NCBI RefSeq assembly: GCF_014652935.1 | Contig: NZ_BMZT01000001.1 | Coordinates: 186,001 to 250,000, forward strand | Source: Luteimonas padinae | Lineage (GTDB): Bacteria > Pseudomonadota > Gammaproteobacteria > Xanthomonadales > Xanthomonadaceae | Direction: 5' to 3' | Length of the DNA stretch: 64,000 bases | Part shown: positions 5,576 through 12,863 of the stretch, one piece after another | How the letters are laid out: each line of letters opens with the position of its first letter | Position numbering within the stretch: the stretch's first letter is position 1 | Program-made: the position numbers and the translations under genes | Notes under the pieces: model-generated | Seen by the model: the letters and a program-made list of their open reading frames with translations, nothing else | The model's database searches: none | What the model was told of the DNA's origin: nothing

Positions 5576-6331
5576 CTACTTGCCCAGGCGCGCCACCAGC
5601 GCGCGCAGACCGGCCTGGGTATCGGGATCGTTCCAGGCGTCGACGAAGGTGTCGATGTCGATGTTCGCGGGGTCCAGCGCGGCGCGCAGGTCGGCGCGTG
5701 CGATGGCGCGCGTGCGCAGCACCGGTGCGGAGGGCAGGGCGAGCAGGGCGTCCAGCCACGCGATCGCGCGCGCGACGACGTCATCCGGCGCGGCGAGTTC
5801 GTCGACCAGGCCGATGTCGAGCGCGCGCGCGCTGTCGACCAGTTCGCCCGTCACCAGCAGCAGCCCGGCGCGATGGGCGCCCACCGCGCGCCGCATCAGG
5901 TGCTGGATGCCGTCGGGCGCAACCAGGCCCACCTGGGTTTCGTTGAGGCCGATGCGGAACGCCCCTTCGGCCATCACCCGGTAGTCGCAGCACAGCGCGA
6001 GCACGCAGCCGCCGGCCGGCGAATGCCCGGTGATCGCCGCGACCACGGGCACCGGCGAGGCCGCGATCGCGCGCGCGGCGTCGAGGAATGCCGTCCAGGC
6101 CGCACCCACCGCCTCGCGTGACTCCAGCGTCAGCAGGTGCGGCACGTCGAGGCCGGCCGAAAACACCTTCCCGCCCGACAGCACGATGCCCCTGGCGCCC
6201 GCCGTCACCGCCGCGTCCACCGCCGCCGCGATGCCCGCGCACAGCGCGGGGTCGAGGGCGTTGACCGGCGGACGCGCGAGCCGCAGCTCGACGATGGCGC
6301 CGTGTTCGATCGTGTCGATGGATGCGGTCAT
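5576..6331 (-). CDS. Delta3,Delta2-enoyl-CoA isomerase-like crotonase
   Basis: A 251-residue crotonase-family protein. It keeps only one of the two hydratase acids: the segment SPAGGCVLALCCDYRVM has Val where hydratases have Glu, while GLNETQVGL retains the other Glu. The PAGGC...CDYR plus GLNETQ pattern is that of mitochondrial-type enoyl-CoA isomerases (ECI1), which move a 3-enoyl double bond to position 2 for beta-oxidation of unsaturated fatty acids. I therefore prefer isomerase over hydratase; substrate identity is inferred. It is transcribed divergently from the PCuAC gene, with only 43 bp between the start codons. Confidence 0.8.
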   Translation of the reverse strand: MTASIDTIEHGAIVELRLARPPVNALDPALCAGIAAAVDAAVTAGARGIVLSGGKVFSAGLDVPHLLTLESREAVGAAWTAFLDAARAIAASPVPVVAAITGHSPAGGCVLALCCDYRVMAEGAFRIGLNETQVGLVAPDGIQHLMRRAVGAHRAGLLLVTGELVDSARALDIGLVDELAAPDDVVARAIAWLDALLALPSAPVLRTRAIARADLRAALDPANIDIDTFVDAWNDPDTQAGLRALVARLGK

Positions 6332-6362
6332 GCGTCGGCCCGGTGCTGTGGAAGAGGGGGGC

Positions 6363-6368
6363 TATCAT
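6363..6368 (+). promoter_or_regulatory. -10 box TATCAT placed for a leaderless transcript
   Basis: TATCAT ends only 6 bases before the ATG at 6375. Transcription starting 6-7 bases downstream would begin on or next to the start codon. No good -35 box is visible. Confidence 0.5.
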
Positions 6369-6374
6369 AGGCGC

Positions 6375-6866
6375 ATGGACACGACCGCCCGCTTCCTGCC
6401 CGCCGCCTTCCTGCCGCTGGCGCTGCTTTTCGCTCCCGTGCAGCAGGCCCTCGCATCCGGGCCTGCGGGCGAGGACGCTGCAGCCGAAACCGCGTGCCTG
6501 CCGCGCATCGAAGACGGCTGGCTGCGTGCGCCACCGATGCCGATGCCGATGGTGGCCGGCTTCGCGCGGGTGGTGAACCCGTGCGCGGGCGAGGTCGTGG
6601 TCACCGGCGCGCGCAGCGAGGCCTTCGCCGCCGTGGAGCTGCACGAGACCCGCGTGGTCGACGGCGTCAGCCGCATGCGCGCGCTGGACACGCTGCCCGT
6701 GGCCGCGGGCGGTGAAGCGGTGCTGCGCCCGGGCGGCCTGCACCTCATGCTGATGCGGCCGGCATCGCCGCTGGCCGAGGGCGACGTCGCACGCGTCGAG
6801 CTGGTGCTGGCCGATGGCCGCAGCATCTCCGCCGATTTCCCGGTGCGCGCGCCCGGAGCGCGCTGA
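6375..6866 (+). CDS. PCuAC-type periplasmic copper chaperone
   Basis: A 163-residue exported protein with a signal peptide (about residues 1-27) and a complete PCuAC copper-binding motif, H-x10-M-x21-H-x-M. The motif runs from HETRVVDGVSRM to LHLMLM. These proteins hold Cu(I) in the periplasm and deliver it to the CuA centre of cytochrome oxidase. All four ligands are present and correctly spaced. No Sco or cox gene is adjacent. The start codon lies 6 bases from a TATCAT box and has no Shine-Dalgarno sequence, which suggests a leaderless mRNA. Confidence 0.9.
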   Translation: MDTTARFLPAAFLPLALLFAPVQQALASGPAGEDAAAETACLPRIEDGWLRAPPMPMPMVAGFARVVNPCAGEVVVTGARSEAFAAVELHETRVVDGVSRMRALDTLPVAAGGEAVLRPGGLHLMLMRPASPLAEGDVARVELVLADGRSISADFPVRAPGAR

Positions 6867-7243
6867 CGGCCGTCCGGCATCGCGCCGGTGACGGGCGGCG
6901 CCGCGTTGCATCGATGAAACGTCGACTGGTGGCTGCGCCGGCACGCGCGGACGCGTGTGGTGGCGCGGGCCAGCGCGCCTGCAGGCGGGCATTCCGGCGC
7001 GCGGCCGGGGGCTTCGCCGCGCGGGGCTGTTTCGCGTCTGCAACGGTTTCGCGCCCGGATCGCCGCGCACGCGGCGAATGCGGCCATGGCAGTTCGGGTC
7101 GTGGCTGAAAAACATCGTCGGATCAGCAGCTTGCATGCACTCGCTGGAGGCTGGCACCAAACCTGCGTGATCGCCCTGGCTACGGCCTGCAGCCCCCTTC
7201 CCCCCCGCAGGCCGGCGCGACCATTCCCCCCAGGAGAACGACG
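6867..7243. other. 377-bp non-coding region upstream of the Fap-like cluster
   Basis: No convincing gene is seen here. It holds a GC-rich stretch at about 6990-7030 with short inverted repeats, then a slightly AT-richer patch near 7105-7120 (GCTGAAAAACATCG) that could suit a bending or activator site. A sigma-54-type promoter lies at 7152-7166, and there is a 5' leader of about 65 bases with an AGGAG ribosome-binding site at 7232-7236. Confidence 0.5.
7152..7166 (+). promoter_or_regulatory. Candidate sigma-54 promoter for the Fap-like cluster
   Basis: TGGCAC-N5-CTGC matches the RpoN consensus TGGCAC-N5-TTGC at 9 of 10 positions. The invariant GG (7153-7154) and GC (7165-7166) are separated by exactly 10 bases. 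It lies 78 bp upstream of the first gene. A gene for a sigma-54 activator sits at the other end of the cluster, which supports RpoN control of these genes. Confidence 0.7.
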
Positions 7244-8164
7244 ATGCGCATCCGCAAGAGCACGTTGGCCGCCGCCGTGGTACTTGGCATGGGCCTGTCC
7301 GCCCAGGCATGGGCCCAGGACAATACCCAGAACGAGCGCGGCGCAGGCGACAACAACGCCAGCAATACCGAAGACAACAGCAGCGGCGATGCCCGCGACA
7401 ACGCCGGCCTCGCCGACGCGTCCGGTGCTTCGGCCGCCTCCGCCAACAACGGCAGCGCCGCCAGCACGAGCATCGCCAGCTCGTTCAACACCAGCACGGC
7501 GGTGGCCAGCACCAGCCTCAGCGCGTCGGTGTCCGGCAACGGCGTGCAGGTGATGGGCAACATCGCCACCAACAACGGCAGCGCCGGCGGCGGCGCAGGT
7601 GGCGCGGCCCTGGGCGGTCTCGCACTCGCAGGCGGCGGCTCCGGCGGTGACGGTGGCGACGGCGGCGATGCCGGCGCGGCCAGCCTGCGCGACGGTGATG
7701 CCGCGGCGTCCGGCCTGGCCGGCACGCTGGGCGTGGCCGGTGCGGCATCCGCGGCCGGCGCGGCTGCGGACGGCGACGTCGGCGATGGCGACCTGGGCTG
7801 GGCGGACTCCGACGCCACGGCCACCGCGGGAGACGCCACGGCGTCGGCTGACGGCACGACCAGCGGCGGCGACACCGCGGCCGACAACTCCGGCAGCAGC
7901 GGCGATGCCACGGCCAGCGCCGGCGGCGGCGGCGCGGGTGGCGCGGCGGCTGGCGGCGCGGCGGCCGGCGGTGCGGCCACCGGTGGCGCGGGCGGTGCCG
8001 GCGGCTCCAGCTGGGCCCACGGCGGTGCCTTCGACATGTCGAACTCGATGGACGGCTCGGCCAACGCGGCCGCCGGCATCATGGTGCTGGCACAGAACAG
8101 CGGTGCGACCTCGCTCATCCAGCAGGGCGTGACCGTGCAGGCCAACCTCAACGTCGGTCCCTGA
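7244..8164 (+). CDS. Exported Gly/Ala/Asp/Ser-rich protein, candidate fibre (Fap-like) subunit
   Basis: A 306-residue protein with a classic signal peptide (about residues 1-24, cleavage near AWAQ). An Asn/Asp/Ser-rich segment (about 25-110) is followed by Gly- and Ala-rich low-complexity repeats (about 115-260). The last 25 residues contain VLAQNSGATSLIQQGVTVQ, a motif shared with the next gene's product (IQNSGANVLIQSGTAVNVQ). No catalytic domain is visible. Sec export, a repetitive small-residue composition and neighbours resembling FapD and FapF suggest an exported amyloid or fibre subunit like FapC; this is inference, and I cannot show homology. A 12-bp perfect hairpin follows the gene, which may give it higher mRNA levels than the rest of the operon. 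Confidence 0.65.
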   Translation: MRIRKSTLAAAVVLGMGLSAQAWAQDNTQNERGAGDNNASNTEDNSSGDARDNAGLADASGASAASANNGSAASTSIASSFNTSTAVASTSLSASVSGNGVQVMGNIATNNGSAGGGAGGAALGGLALAGGGSGGDGGDGGDAGAASLRDGDAAASGLAGTLGVAGAASAAGAAADGDVGDGDLGWADSDATATAGDATASADGTTSGGDTAADNSGSSGDATASAGGGGAGGAAAGGAAAGGAATGGAGGAGGSSWAHGGAFDMSNSMDGSANAAAGIMVLAQNSGATSLIQQGVTVQANLNVGP

Positions 8165-8181
8165 CGGGTCCGGGTCCAGGC

Positions 8182-8211
8182 GCGCGCCGCGGGTCGATTC
8201 CCGCGGCGCGC
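8182..8211 (+). terminator. Strong 12-bp intercistronic hairpin
   Basis: A perfect 12-bp GC stem (GCGCGCCGCGGG and its complement) with a 6-base loop lies 18 bases after the subunit gene and 26 bases before the next start codon. There is no T-run, so it more likely attenuates or protects the upstream mRNA than terminates fully. Similar placement after major fibre-subunit genes sets subunit stoichiometry in other systems. Confidence 0.55.
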
Positions 8212-8236
8212 TTCGCCGCTGTCCAGGAGGACGGAC

Positions 8237-8578
8237 ATGCCCGTCATCGTGATTCCAGTCATCGTCGGCGCGCTCGCGCTGGCGTCGCCACCGGCTGAGC
8301 CGGTGGCCGTCGAGGGCTTCGGCCAGGCCTTGGCCGGCCAGGCCCTCGCGGCCATGCGCGGCGGCGATTCGTCGAACGTGGTCGTGGTGGAGGCCAACAA
8401 CACCGGCACCGTGGACGGCAACAGCGCCGTGGGCACGGTTGGCGGTGCCAACACGGTCACCGGCGGCGCGTTCGGCAACGCCGCCGGCATCAATACCGTG
8501 ATCCAGAACAGCGGGGCCAACGTGCTGATCCAGAGCGGCACCGCGGTCAACGTGCAGTTCGGCGGGGGCGGCCCGTGA
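8237..8578 (+). CDS. Small repeat protein with AMRGG double-glycine-like site (Fap-like minor subunit)
   Basis: A 113-residue protein. The N-terminus is hydrophobic (about residues 1-20), followed by a leader-like stretch ending in AGQALAAMRGG at about residues 33-43. The remainder is Asn/Gly/Val-rich, with imperfect repeats such as NTGTVDGNSAVGTVGGANTV, and ends with IQNSGANVLIQSGTAVNVQ. The GG is a plausible cleavage point for the C39 peptidase encoded next, giving a mature product of about 70 residues. AGGAGG at 8225-8230 is a strong ribosome-binding site. Its TGA overlaps the GTG start of the peptidase gene. It may be a nucleator or minor subunit; function is inferred from context. Confidence 0.65.
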   Translation: MPVIVIPVIVGALALASPPAEPVAVEGFGQALAGQALAAMRGGDSSNVVVVEANNTGTVDGNSAVGTVGGANTVTGGAFGNAAGINTVIQNSGANVLIQSGTAVNVQFGGGGP

Positions 8579-9282
8579 GGCAGCGGCCCGCCGCGGCGGC
8601 CTCGTCGCTGCTGCTGGCCGCCGGCCTGGCCTGCCAGGCGGCCCTGCCGGCGCAGGCGTCGACCGCCGAGGTGCGGGTGCCCTCCGGTGGCAGCTACGCC
8701 GTGCCGGTGACCAGCCTGAAGGCCGCGCGCTACCGCACCACCGTTCCGCAGCAGCACGACTTCAGCTGCGGCTCGGCCGCGGTCGCGACCCTGCTGACGT
8801 TCCATTACGGGCAGCCGGTGGGCGAGGCGGAAGTGTTCCGCCAGATGTACGCCCTGGGTGACCAGGCACGGATCCGCCGCGAAGGGTTCTCGCTGCTCGA
8901 CATGCGCGCCTACTTGGAGGCGCAGGGCTACGCGGCGGACGGATTCGAGGTTCCGCTGGAGCGCCTGCTCGAGGAAGGCCTGCCGGCGATCGTGCTGCTC
9001 AACGACCGCGGCTACCGCCACTTCGTGGTGGTCAAGGGCCTGCGCGCCGGCCGCGTGCTGGTCGGCGATCCCGCGCGCGGCACGCGGCTGCTGCCCAGGC
9101 GCCAGTTCGACCGTCTGTGGGACAACGGCGTGCTCTTCGTCGTCCACAACCGCCGCGAGCTCGCGGCCTTCAATGCCGCGCGCGACTGGCGCCTGGCGCC
9201 CATGGCGCCGCTGGCCAGCGCGGTCCAGCGCGCCGGGCTGCAGGACGTGGTCCTGAGCCGCCGCGGACCGGGGGACATCTGA
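8575..9282 (+). CDS. Exported C39-family cysteine peptidase (FapD-like)
   Basis: A 235-residue protein with a signal peptide (about residues 1-28) and a single peptidase C39-like domain. The oxyanion Gln and nucleophile lie in QQHDFSCGSAA (Cys65), the catalytic His is in YRHFVVVKG (His149) and the Asp in VGDPARGT (Asp165). C39 domains normally sit on ABC transporters and cut leader peptides after a double glycine. Here the domain is free-standing and predicted to be periplasmic, as in FapD of the Pseudomonas Fap amyloid system. The GTG start overlaps the preceding stop codon (GTGA). Likely substrates are the AMRGG-containing proteins on either side. Confidence 0.8.
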   Translation: MRQRPAAAASSLLLAAGLACQAALPAQASTAEVRVPSGGSYAVPVTSLKAARYRTTVPQQHDFSCGSAAVATLLTFHYGQPVGEAEVFRQMYALGDQARIRREGFSLLDMRAYLEAQGYAADGFEVPLERLLEEGLPAIVLLNDRGYRHFVVVKGLRAGRVLVGDPARGTRLLPRRQFDRLWDNGVLFVVHNRRELAAFNAARDWRLAPMAPLASAVQRAGLQDVVLSRRGPGDI

Positions 9283-9283
9283 C

Positions 9284-9802
9284 ATGAAGATCCGTGACGC
9301 CAGGCGCATTGGATGGCCGCTGCTGGTGACGGCGCTGCTCGCCCTCGCCGCGGTCGGATGGACGGCACCCTCGGAGGCCGCGGAGCCGGCCCTTCCGGAC
9401 GGCTGGGTGCCGGTGTCCCCGGAGCGGCTCGGGGCGATGCGTGGCGGTTATGCGCTGCCCTCCGGCCTGGTGGTCGCCTTCGGCTTCGAGCGCCAGGCCT
9501 GGGTGAACGGTGCGCTGGTGGCATCGCTCAAGGTCGACATCCCCGACGTCGGGCGCATGAGCGCCGCCGAGGCGGGCGAACTGGCGCAGCTGCAGCAGAC
9601 CCGGGTGGTGCAGGTGGGGCCCGGCAACCTCGACGCGCTGGCGGGGGGCGCGGGCCTGGTCATCCAGAACACGCTCGACTCGGCCCAGATCCGCGTGCAG
9701 ACCACGGTCGATGCCGCCACCAGGACGCTCGGCCTGTTGCAGGCAATGCATTTCAGCGAAGCCCTGGGCCGCGCCGGGCTGGGCGCGGCGGGCGGGCCAT
9801 GA
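9284..9802 (+). CDS. Exported protein with AMRGG site (Fap-like cluster)
   Basis: A 172-residue protein with an N-terminal hydrophobic segment (about residues 10-32). The motif VSPERLGAMRGGYALPSGLV follows at about residues 44-63, again with a double glycine after AMR. After this come FGFERQAWVNGALVASLKVD and a central GAGLVIQNTLDSAQIRVQTT, which resembles the IQNS...IQ motif of the two subunit-like proteins. It starts 1 base after the peptidase stop codon, and its TGA overlaps the next ATG (ATGA). I do not recognise a named family. It could be a chaperone, minor subunit or assembly factor, and its position matches that of an accessory Fap gene. Confidence 0.6.
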   Translation: MKIRDARRIGWPLLVTALLALAAVGWTAPSEAAEPALPDGWVPVSPERLGAMRGGYALPSGLVVAFGFERQAWVNGALVASLKVDIPDVGRMSAAEAGELAQLQQTRVVQVGPGNLDALAGGAGLVIQNTLDSAQIRVQTTVDAATRTLGLLQAMHFSEALGRAGLGAAGGP

Positions 9803-11148
9803 CCGTCCCGCGCGGCGCAGGCCCGGCACTCGCCCTGCTGGCGGCGGCGCTGGCGATGCCGCTGCCGGCCTGGACGCAGGACGCCGGAACGCCGGCGGCG
9901 GACGAGGCGCGCATCCGCACGCTGGAAGCGCGGCTCGACGAACAGGCGCGCCAGATCCGCGAGCTGCGCGAGTACGTGCAAGGCCAGCGCGCGGGCTGGG
10001 ACGAGGCCGGGAGCGGCGTCGACGCGTGGCGGCTGGACGACCTGCGCGCGCGCGGCGCGGCAGGCGCGGCCCTCCCTGCCGCGCCGGCGATGGCGGCGGC
10101 GGGTGCTGCGGGCCAGTCGGGCGAGGACCGCCCGGTGCCGGTGGGGCAGGCACCGGAGGAGTCCACGCGGCCTCCCGAGGTCGCGCAGATCTTCGACCAG
10201 CCGGGCGTGCTGACGCCGCGCGGCACGCTGGTGCTCGAGCCGTCGCTGCAGACCGGTTACTACTCCAACGACCGCGTCGCGCTGATCGGCTACACCGTGA
10301 TCCCGGCCATCCTCATCGGCCTGATCGACGTGCGCCAGGTGAAGACCACCAGCCTGTCGGTCGGCCTGGCCGCGCGCTACGGCCTGGCCAACCGCTTCGA
10401 GCTCGAGCTGAAGGTGCCGTACATGTACATCCGCGGCGATACCGTCAGCCGCGAGATCTTCACCGGCTCGGCCCAGGACAGCGTGTTCAGCGCCGACGGC
10501 AGCGGCCTTGGCGACATCGAGATGACCGCGCGCTACCAGCTGCCGAACAAGGGCGCCGACCGGCCGTTCTACGTGCTCTGGCTGCGCTACAAGTCGCGCA
10601 CCGGCGAGGATCTGTTCGAGGTCACCACCGACTGCGTCACCCGCTGCGTGGCCAACGCCACCGGCACCGGCCTGCCGCTGGAGCTGCCCACCGGCAGCGG
10701 CTTCGCCTCGGTGCAGCCGGGCGTGACCTGGCTGTACGCCTCGGACCCCGTGGTGTTCTTCGGCAGCCTGAGCTACCTGCACAACTTCGCCCGCAAGGAC
10801 GTCTCGCGCACCACGCTCACCGGCGCGCCGGAGGGCTTTCCGCAGACCACCACCGAATACCTGGGCGAGGTCGACGCCGGCGACATCATCGGCTTCAACG
10901 TCGGTATCGGGCTCGCGCTCAACGAGCGCGCCGCGATCAGCATCGGCTACGACCACAACATCGTGCAGCGCTCGCAGCAGAACGGCAGCGACCTGCCGGG
11001 CTCGGTGCGCGTGGTGCTGGGCACGCTGATGCTCGGCGGCACCTACCGCATCAGCGAACGCACCAGCCTGAACATCGCGCTGGGCGCCGGCATGACCCGC
11101 GACACGCCCGACGTCACCCTGGTCGCGCGCCTGCCGATCCGGTTCTGA
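9799..11148 (+). CDS. Outer-membrane beta-barrel with N-terminal coiled coil (FapF-like exporter)
   Basis: A 449-residue protein. It has a signal peptide (about residues 1-27), a heptad-patterned helix (about 36-67, IRTLEARLDEQARQIRELRE) that should form an oligomeric coiled coil, and a Pro/Ala-rich linker (about 90-130). The long C-terminal region (about 135-449) has alternating hydrophobic/polar strands typical of a barrel and ends in LPIRF, with the C-terminal aromatic residue common in outer-membrane proteins. This layout is that of FapF, the trimeric pore that exports Fap amyloid subunits. A 10-bp inverted repeat with a 23-base loop (11164-11206) lies after the stop. Annotation pipelines may call it simply 'transporter'. 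Confidence 0.7.
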   Translation: MTVPRGAGPALALLAAALAMPLPAWTQDAGTPAADEARIRTLEARLDEQARQIRELREYVQGQRAGWDEAGSGVDAWRLDDLRARGAAGAALPAAPAMAAAGAAGQSGEDRPVPVGQAPEESTRPPEVAQIFDQPGVLTPRGTLVLEPSLQTGYYSNDRVALIGYTVIPAILIGLIDVRQVKTTSLSVGLAARYGLANRFELELKVPYMYIRGDTVSREIFTGSAQDSVFSADGSGLGDIEMTARYQLPNKGADRPFYVLWLRYKSRTGEDLFEVTTDCVTRCVANATGTGLPLELPTGSGFASVQPGVTWLYASDPVVFFGSLSYLHNFARKDVSRTTLTGAPEGFPQTTTEYLGEVDAGDIIGFNVGIGLALNERAAISIGYDHNIVQRSQQNGSDLPGSVRVVLGTLMLGGTYRISERTSLNIALGAGMTRDTPDVTLVARLPIRF

Positions 11149-11261: not shown

Positions 11262-12411
11262 ATGCGGCGCAAGGGCATGCCGGGATGCACTGGAGTGCGC
11301 GGATTCATCCATTGGGTGGTGCCCGGGGGCGGCGTGGTCGAAGCCTTGCCCGCGGGCCTGGCCGAGCGCGGCTGGGAGCCGCGCCTGGTGTCGTCGGCCG
11401 ATGCGATCACGGCCCTGCCGGCGCGCGGTGCGGACGCGTGCTGCGCCGGCCTGCTGGACCTTCGCGGCAGCGGCGAGCCCTCGGCGCATGGGCTCGAACG
11501 CATCCGCGAGGTGCTCGCCCGCGGCGGGCTGGGCTGGGTGGCGGGCCTCGCCCCGGGCCAGGTGAAGCTTGAACCGGTGCGGCGGCTGGTGCGTGACCAC
11601 TGCCACGACTACGTGGTGCTGCCCTGCGAGGACGGCCTGCTCGCCACCGTGCTCGGTCATGCCCACGGCATGGCGCGGCTGGAGGACTGCAGCGGGGCCA
11701 TGCCACGTCCGGTGCCGTCGATGGACGGCATGGTCGGCGAGAGCCCGGTGATGCACGCGCTCTACCGGCAGCTGCAGCGCGCGGCGCTGACCGACGCGCC
11801 GGTGTGCATCGGCGGCGGCACCGGAACGGGCAAGGAGCTGGCGGCGGCCGCGATTCATCGCCATTCGAAGCGGCACGGAGCGCCGCTGGTGGTCATCAAC
11901 TGCGGCGCGATCCCGGAAAGCCTGGTGCAGTCCGAGCTGTTCGGCTTCGAGCGCGGCGCCTTCACCGGCGCCACCCAGCGCAAGCGCGGTCGCTTCGAGC
12001 ATGCCGACGGCGGCACCCTGTTCCTGGACGAGATCGGCGACCTGCCGCTGGAGTCGCAGGCGTCGCTGCTGCGCTTCCTCGAGCAGGGCACGATCCAGCG
12101 CCTGGGCGGGCACGAGGACATCGCGGTCGATGCGCGGATCATCTGCGCCACCCACGTCGACCTGGAGGCGGCTGTCGAGCGCGGGCGCTTCCGCGAGGAC
12201 CTGTACCACCGCCTGCGGGTGATCGAGCTGCACATGCCGGCGCTGCGCGAGCGCGGTGGCGATCGAGCGTGCGCTGCTGCGCAATGGCGGACGCCTGCAG
12301 GCCGCCGCGCGCGAGTTGGGGATCTCGCGCGTCACCCTGTACCGGCTGATGAACCGCCACGGCCTGCGCGGTGGCGAGGACGCCACCGGTGCCGGCACCG
12401 GTCGAGGCTGA
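11262..12411 (+). pseudogene. Sigma-54-dependent (VpsR-like) transcriptional activator, disrupted by internal deletion
   Basis: The reading frame from 11262 (ribosome-binding site AAGGGGG) encodes an N-terminal regulatory domain of the VpsR-like type (about residues 1-145). An AAA+ sigma-54 activation domain follows, with a Walker A-like GGGTGTGKE, the sigma-54 contact loop GAFTGA (about 232-237), Walker B GTLFLDEIGDL and FREDLYHRLRVIELHMPALRERGGD. After codon 334 the frame becomes nonsense. The Fis-type helix-turn-helix (NGGRLQAAARELGISRVTLY) is found from 12256 in another frame and ends at 12411. The roughly 60-70 residues that normally follow RERGGD, including the WPGNVREL sensor II region, are absent. 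This reads as a deletion plus frameshift, leaving a protein without a working ATPase end or DNA-binding domain; an assembly error is the main alternative. Confidence 0.75.
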
Positions 12412-12447
12412 AACGAGGCGGTCGCCGTCGGCGGCCGGGTCCGCGCC

Positions 12448-12863
12448 TCAGCCTCCGGCGACGCGCCTGACCGCCGCGGGCAGCGGCGTCGGGCGACCGC
12501 TGCCGCGGTCGATCCAGACCATCACCACGTGGCCGTCGGCGTGCAGCACGGTGCCGTCGGCGCTGGTGATGCGGTGGCCGAGGGTCACGCTGCTGGTGCC
12601 GACGCGGTCGGCAGTGAGTTCGACCACGATCGAGCCGGGGTAGGGGATGGGCTGCCGGTAGTTCATCTGCACCGCCGCCAGCAGCGGCGCGGTGGCGTCG
12701 GTGACCCATTCCTCGCCCAGCGATTCGAACCAGCGGATCCGCGCCTCCTCCAGGTAGGTCATGAAGTTGGAGTTGTTGACGTGGTTGAAGGCGTCGAGGT
12801 CGCGCCAGCGCAGCTCGATGGGCATGCGCTGGAGCACCTTCCCGTGTTCGGCGGGTTCGTGGC

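Follow-up and report, generated by a model that had tools for sequence, protein, structure and literature searches.

A putative Fap-related sister system in Luteimonas padinae with double-glycine-type leaders on two proteins encoded next to a C39 peptidase

The window analyzed here, a 64,000-nucleotide stretch of Luteimonas padinae DNA (contig NZ_BMZT01000001.1, positions 186,001 to 250,000), contains a run of five genes that encode a free-standing C39 peptidase, a coiled-coil/beta-barrel protein and three further proteins denoted S1, S2 and E. The peptidase and the barrel are homologs of FapD and FapF, respectively, from the functional amyloid (Fap) system of Pseudomonas, whereas S1, S2 and E are not recognizably Fap proteins. 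The new element is a predicted double-glycine leader on the two small proteins that flank the peptidase gene, S2 and E. By comparative sequence analysis, the five genes represent a conserved Fap-related sister system, not a rearranged fap operon, and the explanation that best fits the evidence as a whole, and that we consider probable, is a second Fap-related secretion pathway. The genes are:

S1, 7244..8164, forward strand: 306 amino acids, exported (N-terminus judged by eye), Gly/Ala-rich; proposed major surface subunit
S2, 8237..8578, forward strand: 113 amino acids; proposed to be a C39 substrate and either a minor subunit or a nucleator
C39 peptidase, FapD homolog, 8575..9282, forward strand: 235 amino acids, GTG start, free-standing, with its own export signal
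E, 9284..9802, forward strand: 172 amino acids, exported, FapE-like; proposed C39 substrate
FapF-like protein, 9799..11148, forward strand: 449 amino acids; signal, coiled coil, outer-membrane beta-barrel, C-terminal Phe

All five open reading frames, as well as the C-terminal Phe of the barrel protein, had been noted in an earlier, sequence-only reading of the region 7244-11148 and are present as described. The genes are tightly packed, with overlaps or near-abutment at 8575/8578, 9282/9284 and 9799/9802. Sec signals were judged by eye from the N-termini; that of S2 (MPVIVIPVIVGALALASPPA) is the weakest of the set and has no charged start.

Conservation of the gene order

A scan of named contigs with the peptidase alignment detects at least 561 relatives, of which the best 80 were kept. 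After four duplicates from the same contigs were dropped, 76 of these, together with the window and six loci from the same genus, make up a set of 83 loci that were picked on peptidase similarity alone, with S1, S2 and E assigned by position. All 83 loci of this set, which are from Lysobacterales and Burkholderiales, have the gene order S1-S2-C39-E; given that the loci are distinct and were selected only by the peptidase, this order is not due to chance, and the conservation on which the sequence-only reading had made its proposal depend is indeed observed. The taxa among the best 80 include Luteimonas, Lysobacter, Pseudoxanthomonas, Rhodanobacter, Dyella, Luteibacter, Pandoraea, Ralstonia, Variovorax, Polaromonas, Rhodoferax, Cupriavidus and others. 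A relative of the barrel is encoded in 81 of the 83 loci, on the same strand in 68; the 13 loci with an opposite-strand barrel gene are all from Burkholderiales. The two loci that lack it (L074 and L110) are both located near contig ends.

A sample of 61 genomes, including that of L. padinae, yields a peptidase match in 29. Seven of these (L. padinae included) show at least 69% identity and share the arrangement S1-S2-C39-E-barrel-regulator at the same chromosomal site (one, L032, begins inside S1 at a contig end); 15 show 38-43% identity and seven are weak. Eleven of the 15 intermediate matches were read, and all 11 belong to fapABCDEF-type layouts at other sites, one of which (L037) was checked against NCBIfam. 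In a phylum-level sample, an E-like protein is found in 13 of 398 genomes (own genome included). Similar layouts are present on plasmids of Polymorphobacter, Croceicoccus and Photobacterium. In the Photobacterium sp. DA100 plasmid (L162), an RGG-bearing S2-like gene lies between two S1-like genes; after these three come the peptidase gene, a gene for E with an RGG leader and a regulator-like gene, so that the system reaches Vibrionaceae.

Double-glycine leaders and the proposed subunits

In the classical register of C39 leaders, hydrophobic residues at positions -12, -7 and -4 precede GG at -2/-1, and a short helix is expected just before the GG. The predicted leaders of S2 (LAGQALAAMRGG, residues 32-43, followed by DSSN) and E (VSPERLGAMRGG, residues 44-55, followed by YALP) fit this register. 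In all 83 loci, the E leader combines GG with L at -7 and R at -3; in S2, GG together with L (once I) at -7 is present in 82 of 83. Bulky hydrophobic residues occupy -12 in 93-94% of the S2 and E leaders, -7 in 100%, and -4 in 80-87%. The script pattern L...(R/S/T/Q/C)GG by itself recovers 80 E and 80 S2 leaders from the 83 loci, and the others were added by reading, namely the E leaders of L069 (an open reading frame missed by the gene caller), L092 (motif past residue 180) and L105, and the S2 leaders of L112 and L119 (motif too close to the called start). The same pattern occurs in 7 of 83 S1 proteins, 11 of 83 peptidases, 16 of 81 barrels and 11 of 163 products of other genes, and, on average, in 6.0 (S2) and 8.0 (E) of 83 shuffled sequences. 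For the narrower motif L...RGG, the script finds 80/83 E and 53/83 S2 proteins, against 0/83 S1, 0/83 peptidases, 14/81 barrels and 3/163 other genes, with averages of 1.7 (E) and 0.8 (S2) of 83 in shuffles of the same proteins.

AlphaFold2 predicts a short helix at residues 34-40 of S2, just before the GG (mean predicted local distance difference test score, pLDDT, 61), and in E (mean pLDDT 74) a helix at residues 46-53, again just before the GG, followed by a beta-rich domain and a C-terminal helix. The sequence-only reading had described the product of the gene at 9284 as an exported accessory protein; export remains the likely reading, but the protein is better described as a putative FapE-like, leader-bearing substrate of the peptidase.

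S1 has a median length of 327 amino acids and 27.2% Gly in 81 loci, and its C-terminal consensus over these loci is FDMSN...AAGI...QNSG..SLIQQ..TVQANL; the block QNSG...L(I/V/L)QQ is present in 77 of the 81 loci with sufficient length. Mature S2, of 70 amino acids in the window, ends in a QNSGANVLIQ block; 80 of 83 S2 proteins have a C-terminal block of this kind, and 76 of 81 E proteins contain a QN(S/T) block. Profile comparison relates the C-terminal blocks of S1 and S2 with the probability of 41% (4.6e-5). In a Paraburkholderia locus (L126, 3359-5840), S1 is present in two tandem copies before S2, as expected if S1 is the bulk subunit. A divergent amyloid or fiber system, as suggested by the sequence-only reading, is still the best guess; should a fiber be made, its subunits S1 and S2 would constitute a new family.

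An alternative is the release of small double-glycine peptides with a killing, autolytic or signaling function and no fiber. The precedent is the nap island of Neisseria, with the C39 peptidase NapP, the FapF-related channel NapF and the GG-motif substrates NapABC, for which periplasmic processing has been proposed (PMC11798529). The three elements are common to the two systems, as likened by description, and the mature form of S2 would be small (median 67 amino acids). The Naps, however, are cationic, bacteriocin-like and below 10 kDa (PMC11798529), whereas mature S2 is acidic, with a median net charge of -3 and a positive charge in only 1 of 82 cases; E is predicted to be a folded beta-rich domain, and S1 is large and Gly-rich. 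No immunity-like gene was noticed in the loci viewed, although no dedicated search was made. We consider Nap-like peptide release unlikely compared with the second Fap-related secretion pathway.

Relationship to Fap and other systems

A search of NCBIfam with the peptidase identifies the C39_FapD family, NF058616 (8.4e-38, 129.9 bits; cut-off 330); the protein also matches Pfam PF03412 (4.1e-20), of which it is the only representative in the whole genome, and PDB 6mpz (4.7e-9). The catalytic residues Cys65, His149 and Asp165 are located as proposed in the sequence-only reading and, together with Q59, are invariant in 83/83 related peptidases and in 23/23 canonical FapD proteins. The barrel, searched against NCBIfam, Pfam and structures as the 448-amino-acid form from 9802 (one codon shorter at the start), matches FapF, NF058560 (4.4e-43, 147.7 bits; cut-off 700) and, over residues 122-447 of this form, the FapF crystal chains 5o65, 5o67 and 5o68 (2.4e-29 to 3.2e-28). 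As a control, the fap operon of L037 from the same genus was compared to NCBIfam, yielding FapA at 2e-8, FapB at 5e-25, FapC at 1e-47, FapD at 9e-75 (250.7 bits, cut-off 330), FapE at 1e-29 and FapF at 8e-112 (374.1 bits, cut-off 700), all six below the cut-offs. The correspondence of the peptidase and the barrel to FapD and FapF, proposed earlier from their layout, is borne out by these matches. Cys279 and Cys283 of the window barrel, separated by three residues, are invariant in 27/27 aligned barrels and are possibly a disulfide or metal site.

No meaningful NCBIfam or Pfam match was found for S1, S2 or E. In line with the earlier remark that the subunit-like proteins do not obviously match FapB or FapC, neither NCBIfam nor profile comparison links them (probability of 1.7% or lower for S1 and S2), and the idea that S1 and S2 are recognizable relatives of FapC and FapB is not supported by the profile comparison.

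The system could nevertheless be a true fap operon, an ortholog of fapBCDEF without fapA, with subunits diverged past recognition. The D-E-F order is common to both, the regulator and the sigma54-type site found in this genus resemble those of canonical fap operons, and the C-terminus of S2 looks, by eye, loosely like a Fap repeat. Yet, the chromosomal site differs from that of the fap operons within the genus, and both kinds of system coexist in the family. Among 149 family genomes, the E profile matches in 34 (31 at 1e-26 or better; the three weak matches are on canonical FapE genes) and the FapE profile in 32; 11 genomes belong to both the 31 and the 32, with the matches in different places. 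Because the FapE matches are weak (5e-9 to 2e-14) in ten of these 11, all 11 loci were read: genes resembling fapB, fapC, fapD, fapE and fapF are present in ten, and L181, the remaining one, shows D, E and F up to the contig end. The 12 canonical FapD rows of a 53-peptidase tree group in a single clade (support 100/98) that does not include the window peptidase; the tree has several long branches and its bootstrap is not settled. The co-occurrence of both systems argues against a diverged fap operon, which we regard as quite improbable, and the presence of fap operons in the same genus and family, with both kinds at different places in 11 of 149 genomes, indicates a separate sister system. The phrase used in the sequence-only reading, "outside the usual Pseudomonas layout", is accordingly too weak.

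Features common to the sister system and Fap are a C39 peptidase that is free-standing and exported, with its gene close to that of a coiled-coil/beta-barrel protein of the FapF type; a gene for a leader-bearing protein (FapE or E) between these two; a sigma54-type site ahead of the operon; and, within this genus, an activator of similar type in the vicinity. The sister system differs in that FapA is missing, neither S1 nor S2 matches FapB or FapC, the scores of the D and F proteins are below the NCBIfam equivalog cut-offs, the E leader ends in GG whereas that of FapE ends in G-R/K, and two leader-bearing proteins are present instead of one. For the Acinetobacter Fil "putative pilus" system, compared for FilB and FilC, the profile of FilB matches the peptidase (1.3e-33, 116.6 bits) and FilC the barrel (1.8e-11, 44 bits), but far below the respective cut-offs of 475 and 630. 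Peptidase-containing ATP-binding cassette (ABC) transporters (PCAT) and microcin type 1 secretion systems share the C39 fold, as reflected in the 6mpz match, and the leader register; in PCAT, however, the C39 domain is fused to an ABC transporter, whereas the window peptidase, at 235 amino acids, stands alone and is exported. FapD-FapF pairs outside Fap are known in five further phyla (PMC6173800).

The FapE leader and the link to Fap

FapE was examined in 24 loci, of which 11 are operons that were read and 13 come from a class-wide search (in two of these 13, a stop interrupts the match). It has a leader in the same register, with a hydrophobic residue at -12 in 24, L or M at -7 in 24, a hydrophobic residue at -4 in 23, G at -2 in 24/24, and Arg or Lys as the last residue in 24/24. 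A further 15 distinct FapE proteins (L167-L171 and L173-L182; the repeats L166, identical to L040, and L172, identical to L134, were left out) also end in G-R or G-K, for a total of 39/39. Arg at -3 is less constant (28/39). For example, the leader of Aeromonas caviae FapE (L163) ends in LAHLRGR. In L173-L182, which are fap operons and the second loci of genomes with both systems, as many as three FapC-like genes occur in succession, and the FapE leaders end in TGK or SGK, not RGR/RGK.

Among distant relatives of the window system, E ends in GG in 8 of 9, the other being L159 with G-R, whereas S2 ends in GG in L141, L146, L152 and L162 and in G-R/K in L149, L150, L160 and L161. The latter four loci combine an S2 with G-K or G-R and an E with GG and thus link the two leader forms. 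The L159 locus, from an Indioceanicola plasmid, shows a similar order, with a small S2-like protein that has no leader by motif scan. In profile comparisons, E matches FapE with the probability of 81.6% and S2 matches it with 71.7% (2.1% without the leader), whereas E scores 0.0% against the FapA and FapB profiles.

FapD acts in the periplasm, and its Cys is needed for secretion; FapE is the sole Fap protein with complete N-terminal processing, its N-terminal peptides being missing in mass spectrometry (PMC5557850). According to Rouse et al., Fap proteins have no canonical C39 sequences, and FapF is also a possible substrate (PMC5557850); the substrate of FapD is reported as undetermined, with FapE suspected (PMC5557850, PMC6173800). 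The FapE leader fits these facts, and the present comparison supports the view that FapE is a FapD substrate, with the end of the leader giving the putative cut site. The titles and abstracts searched, with subscription journals and preprints outside the scope, name neither a FapD cleavage site nor this sister system.

Two candidate determinants of leader specificity were rejected. The first is a charge pair formed by leader residue -8 and peptidase residue 122, Glu/Arg in Fap and Arg/Asp in the present system; it does not hold, as L149, L150 and L160 combine Glu at -8 with Asp at 122. Peptidase residues 61/67 are Y/F/H-S in 83/83 proteins of the present set and T-A in 19, F-A in 3 and T-S in 1 of 23 canonical FapD; as a switch between GG and G-R/K, they fail in L149, L150, L160 and L161, where a Y-S peptidase is found with a GG-ending E and an S2 ending in G-R/G-K.

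Proposed mechanism

In the second Fap-related secretion pathway as we envisage it, S1, S2, the peptidase, E and the barrel would be exported to the periplasm by Sec, as their N-termini suggest. The peptidase would then remove a second leader after the double glycine, between MRGG and DSSN in S2 and between MRGG and YALP in E, a step to which the leader register strongly points; given that there is no ABC transporter and that the peptidase is exported, the leader is proposed to be read in the periplasm, after the Sec signal. By homology, trimming may release the cargo or license it for the FapF-like coiled-coil/barrel channel. Outside the cell, S1, S2 and E could form a surface fiber or matrix, with the shared QNSG..LIQ-type block as the likely contact unit. 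Transcription would depend on sigma54, considering the promoter-like site and the activator adjacent in this genus. The same logic would apply to canonical Fap, where FapE would be the FapD substrate with a leader ending in G-Arg/Lys instead of G-Gly. In general terms, it appears on balance somewhat probable that the peptidase of FapF-type secretion reads, in the periplasm, a double-glycine-type leader on Sec-exported substrates, i.e., FapE (G-Arg/Lys) in Fap and S2 and E (Gly-Gly, or G-Lys/Arg in some S2) in the widespread sister system, and that cleavage licenses export of the substrates by way of FapF, which amounts to a two-signal outer-membrane route.

Several observations weigh against this scheme. 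At P1, C39 enzymes generally prefer Gly, Ala or Ser, so that the G-R/K ending of FapE is unusual. The similarity of E to FapE falls to the probability of 0.3% without the leader, and the FapB and FapC profiles give no match to S1 or S2; by the criterion of at least four fap homologs in one operon (PMC6173800), the window has two clear ones, D and F, and a third by its leader only. None of the 39 FapE proteins is known to be from Pseudomonas, and two overlapping class-wide searches, of 274 and 377 genomes, contain no genome with a match over the NF058559 cut-off. A relative of the sigma54 activator is found in only 12 of the 83 loci (8 from the Luteimonas group and 4 from Burkholderiales). S2 and E need not be the sole substrates, considering that L...RGG is present in 14/81 barrels and that FapF cleavage has been proposed for Fap (PMC5557850). 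Finally, in L034 (genome G036; 6035-6379), the S2 leader is otherwise kept but ends in GN, not GG. The E leader and the peptidase catalytic residues of this locus are intact, and it is perhaps a natural case in which E alone is cleaved.

Some C39-like domains bind substrate but lack activity (PMC5557850, PMC6173800). A purely chaperone role of the C39 protein, with RGG motifs that serve only a structural purpose, is nevertheless highly improbable given the invariant Q59, C65, H149 and D165, the position of the RGG motif in the register of cleaved leaders, and the abolition of secretion by the FapD Cys-to-Ala change (PMC5557850).

Regulation and the adjacent gene

Two further features, which, like the RGG leaders of the 8237 and 9284 products, were absent from the sequence-only reading, adjoin the five genes:

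Sigma54-type (-24/-12) promoter-like site TGGCACCAAACCTGCG, 7152..7167, forward strand: 92 base pairs before the S1 start (7244)
VpsR-domain/sigma54-activator gene, 11262..12470, forward strand: adjoins the operon; PF00158 7.8e-68, PF20161 VpsR 5.5e-10

The site scores 9/12. Across 78 loci, a sigma54-type site upstream of S1 scores at least 9 in 65 and at least 10 in 43, compared with 42 and 4, respectively, of 410 upstream regions of other genes in the same loci, some of them inside operons; the score is at least 10 for canonical fapA in 10/11 cases. Within the window by itself, the number of matches does not reach significance (3 versus 2.44 expected). The genome encodes rpoN. The regulator is not a fixed part of the system, given its distribution among the loci. 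Compared with its relative in L031, the activator matches residues 1-329 and 410-455 in two frames, with residues 330-409 missing; thus, the gene is apparently internally deleted and out of frame here, which is either a real loss or an assembly error.

Implications

The nap island of Neisseria is the closest precedent for the combination of a FapF-like channel, a C39 peptidase and GG substrates, and lowers the novelty of that element (PMC11798529). FapD is required for the secretion of Fap amyloid, and in the sister system the predicted signal is seen undisguised on the proteins flanking the peptidase gene. This leader points to a disguised version of the same signal in FapE and gives exact, testable cut sites, and the sister system would offer a second protein set for asking what cleavage does in FapF-type secretion.

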